Origin: Flavobacteriia bacterium
GTDB lineage: Bacteria; Bacteroidota; Bacteroidia; Flavobacteriales_D; Crocinitomicaceae
Length of the DNA: 61,072 bases
Direction: 5' to 3'
NCBI GenBank assembly: GCA_947463445.1
Contig: CANHRS010000008.1
Coordinates: forward strand, 1 to 61,072
Part shown: in pieces, positions 5,135 through 6,270 of the stretch
Position numbering within the stretch: position 1 is the stretch's first letter
How the letters are laid out: each line of letters opens with the position of its first letter
The notes under the pieces: model-generated
What the model was told of the DNA's origin: nothing
Seen by the model: the letters and a program-made list of their open reading frames with translations, nothing else
Databases searched by the model: none
Position numbers and translations under genes: made by a program

Positions 5135-5214
5135 ATCACATTCTTCCCCTTTTGAAAGGAAGAAAAAGCACTGCTTTTGAAGACCGAACGAAAGTGACGG
5201 GAAAAGGGGGATGA
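5135..5214 (+). repeat. Repeat A, copy 1 (shortened)
   Basis: Starts CACATTCTTCCCC and contains the AAAAGCACTGCTTTT hairpin found in the other A copies. It ends in the GGGGGATGAC motif shared by all A copies and lacks the middle AATCATT/AATGATT hairpin. Confidence 0.75.
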
Positions 5215-5240
5215 CACTACATCCTCCATTATAAAATCTT

Positions 5241-5317
5241 TGTCACCTCCCTTAATCCCTCCTCACTTCGACAGGCTCAGCACATGCTAGGAGGGAAGTT
5301 TTATGTTCCACTTCGAG
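5241..5317 (+). repeat. Repeat B, copy 1
   Basis: Begins TGTCACCTCCCTTAATCCC and ends TTCCACTTCGAG. CCCTCCT and AGGAGGG form hairpin arms around an inner CTTCGACAGGCTCAG segment. Near-identical to copy 3 at 6195-6270. Confidence 0.8.
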
Positions 5318-5320
5318 TTT

Positions 5321-5482
5321 AATTGATTCATAATAAATTTACCAAACCACATTCTTCCCCCTTTGAAGGGAAGAAAAAGCACTGCTTTTGAAGACTGTAA
5401 ATCATTCAAGAAAAAAATGATTCATAATAAATTTACCAAACCACATTCTTCCCCCTTTGAAGGGGGACCGAGGGGGATGACC
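5321..5482 (+). repeat. Repeat A, copy 2 (full, left of the DUF559 gene)
   Basis: 162 bp, and the same length as copy 3 at 6010-6171 with only a few substitutions. It holds a series of hairpins: CCCCCTT/AAGGG, AAAAGC/GCTTTT, AATCATT/AATGATT and CCCCCTT/AAGGGGG. It ends GAGGGGGATGACC. A TTCATAATAAATTTACC segment occurs twice inside it. Confidence 0.9.
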
Positions 5483-5560
5483 ATTCACGATATTTTTTTA
5501 ATTAAGTGCTTTTGAACCAAACAAAATCTTACAATTTTCACTAACTTAAATAAGAAAAAC

Positions 5561-5935
5561 ATGTATACAAATAATTTCTACAACCCCAATTTAAAAAGTT
5601 ACGCAAGAGAATTGAGATCAACATCTATATCAAAAGCTGAAAAAAGAATATGGAAAGCATTACTTTCTAGAGAACAATTAAATGAAAGATTTCTAAGACA
5701 AAGACCTATAAAAAATTTTATAGTAGATTTTTTCTGTCCTAAACTTGGATTAATAATTGAAATTGATGGAAGTTCTCATTTGAACAAAGGTGCATATGAT
5801 TTTTACAGAGAAGAAAAATTAAAAACTCTAGGATATACAATTATTCGATTTCAAGAAGGCGAAGTATTAAGTCAATTAGATGATGTGAAAAGTAGAATTA
5901 TTTATGTTATTTATGTTTTGAATAAAGAGATTTAA
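5561..5935 (+). CDS. DUF559 (Vsr-like, PD-(D/E)XK fold) endonuclease-domain protein
   Basis: 124 residues, the usual length for stand-alone DUF559 proteins. The family pattern is clear: Glu27 in SKAEKRIWKALL, Asp56 in VDFFCP, Glu67 and Asp69 in IIEIDGSSH with His73, and a C-terminal TIIRFQEGEV. The family is related to very-short-patch-repair nucleases; its substrate here is unknown. The gene sits alone, between a full A repeat ending at 5482 and a B repeat starting at 5953, so it occupies the A-to-B linker of a tandem repeat array. The ATG follows an A-rich leader. Base composition is even more AT-rich than its neighbours. The fold is well supported, and a role in repeat maintenance or mobility is inference. 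Confidence 0.88.
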   Translation: MYTNNFYNPNLKSYARELRSTSISKAEKRIWKALLSREQLNERFLRQRPIKNFIVDFFCPKLGLIIEIDGSSHLNKGAYDFYREEKLKTLGYTIIRFQEGEVLSQLDDVKSRIIYVIYVLNKEI

Positions 5936-5952
5936 AATAAAAATTAATCGAT

Positions 5953-6004
5953 TCACCTCCCTTAATCCCTCCTCAAGGAGGGAAGCTTTATGTTCCACTT
6001 CGAG
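5953..6004 (+). repeat. Repeat B, copy 2 (short form)
   Basis: Matches copies 1 and 3 except that 23 bases (the CTTCGACAGGCTCAG segment plus CACATGCT) are absent. This leaves a compact hairpin, CCCTCCT-CA-AGGAGGG. Confidence 0.8.
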
Positions 6005-6009
6005 AGATG

Positions 6010-6171
6010 AATTGATTCATAATAAACTTACCAAACCATATTCTTCCCCCTTTGAAGGGAAGAAAAAGCACTGCTTTTGAAGACTGTAAATCATTCAAGA
6101 AAAAAATGATTTATAATAAACTTACCGAACCATATTCTTCCCCCTTCGAAGGGGGACCGAGGGGGATGACC
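6010..6171 (+). repeat. Repeat A, copy 3 (full, right of the DUF559 gene)
   Basis: 162 bp, aligned end to end with copy 2 at 5321-5482 in the same orientation. Its last hairpin is a perfect palindrome, CCCCCTTCGAAGGGGG. Confidence 0.9.
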
Positions 6172-6194
6172 TTATAACATCTTTCATGAAAAAA

Positions 6195-6270
6195 TGTCAC
6201 CTCCCTTATTCCCTCCTCACTTCGACAGGCTTAGCACATGCTAGGAGGGAAGCTTTATGTTTCACTTCGA
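6195..6270 (+). repeat. Repeat B, copy 3
   Basis: Same structure as copy 1, with the inner CTTCGACAGGCTTAG segment. It ends about 20 bases before the clpB stop codon and may serve as part of that gene's 3' untranslated hairpin region. Confidence 0.8.

Follow-up and report, generated by a model that had tools for sequence, protein, structure and literature searches.

Results

Organization of the repeat array and its DUF559 gene

The DNA analysed (the window) is a stretch of 61,072 bases from a 2.56 Mb genome in 122 contigs. A gene for a 156-amino-acid protein without a Pfam match and a ClpB-like gene flank a gap of 1237 nt that holds six repeats and a single gene. The repeats form one family, each combining a tag of 8 nt, a linker of 3 nt and a polypyrimidine hairpin. 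The following features were assigned, with repeats scored by a covariance model:

5137..6270 (no strand), whole element; the orthologous site in the relative G010 is without it
about 5137-5215, block A1
5144..5215 (- strand), repeat A1, degenerate, with a break between hairpin and tag; 11.6 bits, E 0.14
5241..5484 (no strand), upstream complete dimer B1-A2, tags outward, from alignment to the downstream dimer
5241-5316, block B1
5242..5297 (+ strand), repeat B1: tag, 3-nt linker (TTA, purine strand), hairpin with loop insert; E 1.5e-10
5348-5482, block A2
5449..5481 (- strand), repeat A2: tag, CCG linker (purine strand), 8-bp hairpin; E 1.9e-13
5561..5935 (+ strand), DUF559 nuclease gene, 124 aa; PF04480, 96.7 bits against a cut-off of 20.6
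5950..6173 (no strand), downstream complete dimer B2-A3, tags outward, from alignment to the upstream dimer
5953-6003, block B2
5952..5984 (+ strand), repeat B2: tag, TTA linker, 8-bp hairpin; E 1.5e-13
6037-6171, block A3
6138..6170 (- strand), repeat A3: tag, CCG linker, 8-bp hairpin; E 5.1e-11
6195-6270, block B3
6196..6251 (+ strand), repeat B3 with loop insert; E 1.8e-9

A search of the 61,072-base window with the covariance model gave 11 matches (E up to 1), all within 5144-6251 and five of them with E 2e-9 or lower; the model sequences were filtered for A in the tag, L044 and L046 were left out, and 34 of the 35 listed were used. Rfam models at gathering score identified two tRNAs only in the window. 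All blocks of the order A1-B1-A2-gene-B2-A3-B3 given in the original prediction were present, the A-to-B gaps were about 25, 470 and 24 nt as claimed, and the Pfam score confirmed the assignment of the gene to DUF559. However, A and B, described there as separate blocks in the same orientation, are one repeat type in opposite orientations. The dimers B1-A2 and B2-A3 were identical at 208 of 221 aligned bases, with 26 additional gap columns; thus, the natural unit is a B-A dimer with outward tags, and the gene sits between two dimers rather than inside an A-B linker. The identity found, about 92-94%, does not bear out the almost identical copies of the original prediction.

Secondary palindromic inserts are nested in the window repeats at about 5158-5204, 5266-5288 and 6220-6242. 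One of them (GAAAAAGCACTGCTTTTGAAGACCG..) sits between hairpin and tag and recurs at locus L034, a second (CTTCGACAGGCTCAGCACATGCT) sits in the hairpin loop, and a third kind was observed in a similar position at L033. These inserts may be other repeat families targeting the first one.

Assignment of the repeats to the intrastrand-triplex type

The repeats follow the order 5'-GTCA[C/T]C..CCCT (tag), 3 nt, pyrimidine arm, CA, purine arm, and the tag in the genus is mostly GTCA[CT]C. It tends to mirror the pyrimidine arm of the hairpin, and tag and arm change together between lineages, as seen at related loci in the tag/arm pairs CCTCCCT/TCCCTCC, CCCCTCT/TCTCCCC, CCCTCCT/TCCTCCC and TCTCCCT/TCCCTCT. 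In a set restricted to hairpins with CA/TG loops (69 hairpins, giving 20 distinct tag/arm pairs), the mirror match was 0.681 versus 0.514 (sd 0.026) for permuted tags, and none of 5000 permutations reached this value; 12 of the 20 pairs matched at 6 or more of 8 positions, and the worst pair at 2. In a separate set (93 hairpins, taken from the phylum sample and from plasmids of other phyla), the mean mirror match was 6.59 of 8 positions versus 5.72 (sd 0.07) with swapped flanks. A direct-repeat relation of tag and arm was rejected: it showed no enrichment in the first set, where 4972 of 5000 permutations scored as high, and rose only mildly in the separate set (6.04 vs 5.68), so that the mirror relation fits better. 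In an intramolecular triplex, a pyrimidine strand that runs parallel to the purine arm acts as the third strand. Among the 69 hairpins, TTA was the commonest linker (18/69) and CCG occurred in 6/69; both window dimers join a TTA repeat to a CCG repeat.

Intrastrand-triplex motifs of bacteria (BoxC/PIT/TM) were described by Holder et al. 2015, and one of them (TMECO) was shown to fold in vitro (PMC4666352). PIT/TM motifs are defined there for searching by three consecutive arms of 6-15 nt, with one mismatch above 7 nt, and loops of 1-6 nt; the second loop of the E. coli motifs has 3 nt, TTA or CCG, and inverted pairs join both types in 5/5 cases (PMC4666352). The window repeats B2 and A2 fall within this definition with 8-nt arms, loops of 2 and 3 nt and 7/8 mirror matches. 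They share with the E. coli repeats the hairpin with a third, mirroring arm, the 3-nt second loop, TTA or CCG as in types A and B of TMECO, and inverted pairs of these two types; they differ by their 8-bp arms (TCCCTCCT, TCCCCCTT) and 2-nt first loop, compared with CCCTCNCCC and 3-6 nt in TMECO (PMC4666352). The window arms TCCCTCCT/TCCCCCTT did not fit the TMECO consensus CCCTCNCCC...GGGNGAGGG; CCCTCTCCC arms are present at several other DUF559 loci. Judged by the mirror layout, the TTA/CCG linkers and the paired types, the window repeats are of a known kind, as they fit the intrastrand-triplex (PIT/BoxC/TM) type, and the hairpins are not undescribed (PMC4666352).

Palindromes flank DUF559 genes

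The second DUF559 gene of the genome, on contig C35, has palindromes on both sides, as does the window copy. Among 45 DUF559 copies at 44 loci, a perfect pyrimidine palindrome was found within 300 bp on both sides of 29 and on at least one side of 38, a count that excluded three duplicate loci, one locus at an edge and matches with E >= 1e-4 or fewer than 75 model positions. Pseudo-genes placed at random positions in the same loci were flanked on both sides in 0 of 12,183 cases and on at least one side in 137, so the flanking is not due to chance. At least one palindrome was present at 20/27 loci of relatives (one of them, L075, being a helicase-type DUF559 domain scored as a miss), 25/27 phylum loci and 10/13 plasmid loci (Cyanobacteria, Alphaproteobacteria, a Photobacterium and Deinococcus), and palindromes on both sides at 15/27, 18/27 and 5/13, respectively. 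GIY-YIG genes from the same relatives were flanked in 0/29 cases, and loci with less than 150 nt of flank were skipped (2/29 relatives, 3/30 phylum, 0/13 plasmids, 1/30 GIY-YIG). The expectation that DUF559 genes are flanked more often than other genes was thus borne out, for both copies of the genome and for the relatives. Neither side carried a perfect pyrimidine palindrome in 7/45 copies of the first count and at 12/67 loci of the second; several unflanked loci have imperfect or mixed-base hairpins by eye. A random or compositional origin of the repeats was ruled out by the random-position and GIY-YIG controls.

Several DUF559 matches also lie at contig ends (G025 C1 and C2, G042 C167 and C63, G058 C128, G032 C89), which would be expected where assembly is interrupted by the flanking repeats; draft genomes may understate the copy numbers.

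Repeat numbers in genomes with and without DUF559

Repeats were counted with the covariance model, which is biased toward the genus, scoring at most 120 candidates per genome. Genomes with DUF559 (n=29, selected at E below 1e-15) had a median of 5 repeats and those without (n=30) a median of 0 (Mann-Whitney p 1e-4); within the genus, the medians were 56 and 9.5. The proposed link between DUF559 and repeat number thus held for the medians but not as a strict dependence: repeats were present in 9/30 DUF559-negative genomes, with 22 in G008 (99% complete), and the genus-biased model detected none in 7/29 positive ones.

These numbers bear on a RAYT-like explanation, in which the repeats would be non-autonomous elements mobilized by the action of DUF559 on them, with the unit that carries the nuclease as their autonomous version. 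This explanation would account for the repeats around the gene at most examined loci, for the many solo repeats (39 model matches in the source genome), which scale with DUF559, and for the pairing of repeat and nuclease in several phyla. However, DUF559 is not an HUH/Y1 enzyme, and the repeats persist in the nine genomes that have no DUF559; we consider this explanation possible but would not bet on it. A RAYT proper was rejected as the driver: Y1_Tnp matches occur in 40/59 genomes, the source genome included, their presence correlates more weakly with repeat number (p 0.008), and 0/2 examined Y1 loci were flanked by palindromes. No HUH Y1 transposase lies between the window repeats, where the gene matches DUF559 only.

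Filled and empty sites

In the close relative G010, whose protein flanking the window site is 96% identical, the site measures 70 nt instead of 1237 nt and the element is absent. The C35 copy lies between genes that we take, from reading their sequences, to encode an RluA-like protein and a DEAD-box helicase. This gap comprises 959, 984, 763, 1026 and 1295 nt in five filled contigs, and is empty in G008 (28 nt) and in a second contig of G004 (27 nt) that may derive from another strain (3% contamination); in G001 the copy at this site is in two pieces. The filled and empty sites sought among relatives were therefore found at both positions. Filled junctions start and stop at or near tags, and no clear target-site duplication was seen at the filled and empty junctions compared. 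A recent duplication of the gene within the genome was rejected, as the C35 and window copies share 81.5% amino acid identity at dS 1.09 and the window copy falls outside the branch of the RluA-site group. On two Deinococcus plasmids (L186, L191), related DUF559 genes were observed in different gaps among the same hpa genes.

Properties of the DUF559 protein

The solved chain closest to the window protein is 3hrl_A (E 5.6e-20). An AF2 model (pLDDT 83.6) matched 3hrl and, next, the catalytic domain of I-Bth0305I (3r3p, E 4.6e-4), with TM values of 0.74 for 3r3p_B (E 4.6e-4) and 0.77 by target length for 3r3p_A; structural matches to Vsr had E values of 0.42 (1cw0) and 0.87 (1vsr). In this model, the best functionally named match is thus a homing endonuclease, and DUF559 is a putative DNA-cleaving enzyme. 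The motif E-x-D-G..H is present in 103/106 DUF559 copies. Copies in the genus are under purifying selection, with dN/dS of 0.05-0.16 in 19 of the 20 pairs that gave a value and 0.25 in the remaining one; 8 further pairs were saturated. The nearest relatives in named records come mostly from Flavobacteriia/Flavobacteriales MAGs. PADLOC gave a weak match to methyl-directed restriction (3.7e-6), and the NCBIfam match PRK09767.1 was below its cut-off.

In-frame copies in host genes

DUF559 was found in frame with host genes in 29 copies, whose host labels rest partly on peptide reading (e.g. RecG, HsdM); checks against solved homologues or Pfam covered L082, L083 and nine others. In MetH of G013, the frame remains open across the first hairpin, DUF559 and the second hairpin. 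Query residues 18-417 correspond to 355-757 of a solved methionine synthase and residues 558-1039 to 772-1262, and the insert matches the DUF559 relative 3hrl at 453-548. The LeuRS insert of G031 falls between residues matching 236 and 238 of solved LeuRS. Further hosts identified by Pfam are a SpoIIE phosphatase, Eco57I, type ISP, HsdR, a second LeuRS and another MetH. DUF559 lies toward or at the end of an N6/N4 methylase frame and a PurL-type frame, the latter (L160) representing a terminal fusion and not an insertion; Pfam gave DUF559 only for L091, and L150 has no second domain after the insert. The translated hairpins appear as flanking peptides such as PPSPQKGE and PSPSGRG. The inserts stay in the reading frame, and no intron or intein was seen in them. 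The tags of free copies pointed toward the gene in 61 cases and away from it in 27 (20 unclear), those of in-frame copies toward it in 9 and away in 26 (14 unclear).

The DUF559 frames of L091 and L221 contain the tandem peptides CPQDGVVNTPLEG and TGTPPEEGNK, which suggests local expansion of a border repeat within an open frame.

The in-frame copies bear on two further explanations. Hairpins lie close to both ends of many free-standing DUF559 genes and might serve as terminators or regulators retained around a nuclease gene that is harmful. Yet similar hairpins lie within LeuRS, MetH and other genes, where they are translated in frame, solo copies are common, and PIT elements are reported to have no promoter or terminator activity (PMC4666352), which makes such an insulating role very improbable. 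Triplex repeats might alternatively be unstable landing sites, with DUF559 as a Vsr-like repair or restriction nuclease that has no role in the repeats. Genome variability is indeed reported to be higher around triplex repeats (PMC4666352). In addition, the DUF559 protein VsrA of Caulobacter, required for a DNA damage response in one mutant background, was interpreted by its authors as Vsr-like mismatch repair (PMC12907096); it shares the domain family and is linked to DNA damage in vivo, but is read as a repair protein in a text that contains neither 'palindrom' nor 'repeats' (PMC12907096). Against mere hitch-hiking stand the unflanked GIY-YIG genes of the same genomes and the in-frame DUF559 inserts, which bring hairpins along into conserved genes; we regard it as unlikely, if less so than insulation.

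Clustering by insertion site and allele states at LeuRS

A tree of 106 copies showed a tendency of the 29 in-frame ones to group according to insertion site: the site label changed 19 times, compared with 26.9 times on average and never fewer than 22 times in 2000 shuffles. The MetH-site copy of G013 (family f1) groups with those of G093 and G130 (f26), with one free copy inside the group, and the LeuRS-site copy of G031 (f1) with those of G087, G109 and G159 (f17); same-site clustering within f17 could be due to vertical inheritance. The copies in the second LeuRS site, Eco57I, type ISP and HsdR fall in two places each. At the LeuRS site in 12 genomes of the G087 genus, 4 are without DUF559, 2 have an intact E-x-D-G..H motif and 6 a decayed one; no hairpin peptides were recognized by eye in the six decayed copies. 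Empty, filled and decayed states of this kind would correspond to a homing cycle. The traits of homing elements found are thus site-specific lineages together with empty and decayed alleles, with clustering incomplete at some sites. Clustering by site across families also fits homing better than the RAYT-like movement of hairpins; together with the I-Bth0305I-like fold predicted for the protein and the empty/active/decayed polymorphism, it points to homing of the whole element.

In the LeuRS of one genus (L223, L224, L225, L227, L228, L233), a decayed in-frame DUF559 was observed in the linker before the editing domain; such a domain is possibly a domesticated insert.

The DUF559 gene ycjD of E. 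coli

Reports of triplex-forming repeats in bacteria date back to the 1990s and assign them no mobility function. In E. coli, the DUF559 gene ycjD is followed by a motif fitting the TMECO consensus; at least 80% of this ycjD/TMECO stretch is held by 3362/5426 complete genomes, and the triplex repeat near ycjD is well formed on one side only. In two ycjD-less strains (L265, L267), an RND efflux operon lies upstream of fabI instead, indicating that the ycjD/TM region is a variable site. A clean empty site at ycjD was sought and discarded, as both ycjD-less strains examined carry the operon there. The study of the E. coli repeats found no mobility functions beside them and calls their origin unanswered (PMC4666352); the repeats described here differ from those in having a nuclease gene as partner.

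Discussion

The element described here is probably a selfish element of the homing type, in which a DUF559 nuclease gene lies between border repeats predicted to fold as intrastrand triplexes. As the pairing recurs in distant bacteria, even in essential genes, it looks like a widespread selfish mobile element, with a distribution far broader than the original prediction supposed. It resembles I-Bth0305I-type homing endonucleases (3r3p) in the modelled catalytic-domain fold, in clustering by site and in the presence of empty, filled and decayed alleles; it differs from them in its in-frame insertion with no intron or intein seen and in its triplex-repeat borders.

With REPtrons, in which GTAG REPs flank a RAYT tyrosine transposase, it has in common the gene of a DNA-processing enzyme between palindromes that also occur alone as dimers; the differences lie in a DUF559 fold in place of an HUH Y1 transposase and in the missing GTAG tag (PMC3733652), as well as in intragenic in-frame copies, which contain the gene itself. 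The palindromes known as CGTC REPs and Rickettsia palindromic elements likewise enter protein genes and are reported to be without a dedicated transposase, but have other tag and stem sequences (PMC3733652). The window repeats, with a stem beginning TCCC.. and a loop of 2 nt, did not fit the CGTC REP description given there (CGTC tag, stem of 8-9 bp starting AT, loop of 4-5 nt; PMC3733652). Both the repeats and the fold are known; in the open-access literature, we found no link between DUF559 and palindromes in print, nor the union of repeats and fold, the in-frame lifestyle with no sign of splicing or the spread across the phylum.

From the fold and the population pattern, we infer that the nuclease cuts the element-free allele, and that repair from the filled allele would copy the element in. 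Replication may stall at the borders, or these may open up as single-stranded triplex hairpins; the nuclease may act directly on the repeats, or the repeats may serve only as fork-stalling borders. Occasionally, the cassette or a lone border would be copied to a new place, leaving solo repeats behind. Within host genes, survival would be limited to copies that are in frame, contain no stops and lie in tolerant linkers, with their borders translated as the linker peptides read from the frames. Copies would later decay, as in the states observed, and then be lost.

A more far-reaching proposal, which we put forward tentatively and with clearly less confidence than the homing-type element itself, is that DUF559 provides the engine so far missing for the intrastrand-triplex repeats of bacteria. 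The target of the nuclease would be the triplex structure, probably in single-stranded form at forks; solo repeats, among them those of E. coli, one of which still has ycjD as its neighbour, would be footprints of triplex-bordered homing elements; and persistence in essential genes would be achieved by translating through the insert without intron or intein splicing.

A specific nuclease partner that recurs across phyla would give triplex repeats a source, and DUF559, an uncharacterised family, would gain a likely role. The copies in LeuRS and MetH would define selfish inserts that lie in frame in these genes without a sign of splicing, and in-frame inserts of this kind would offer proteins a way of acquiring new domains and linkers.
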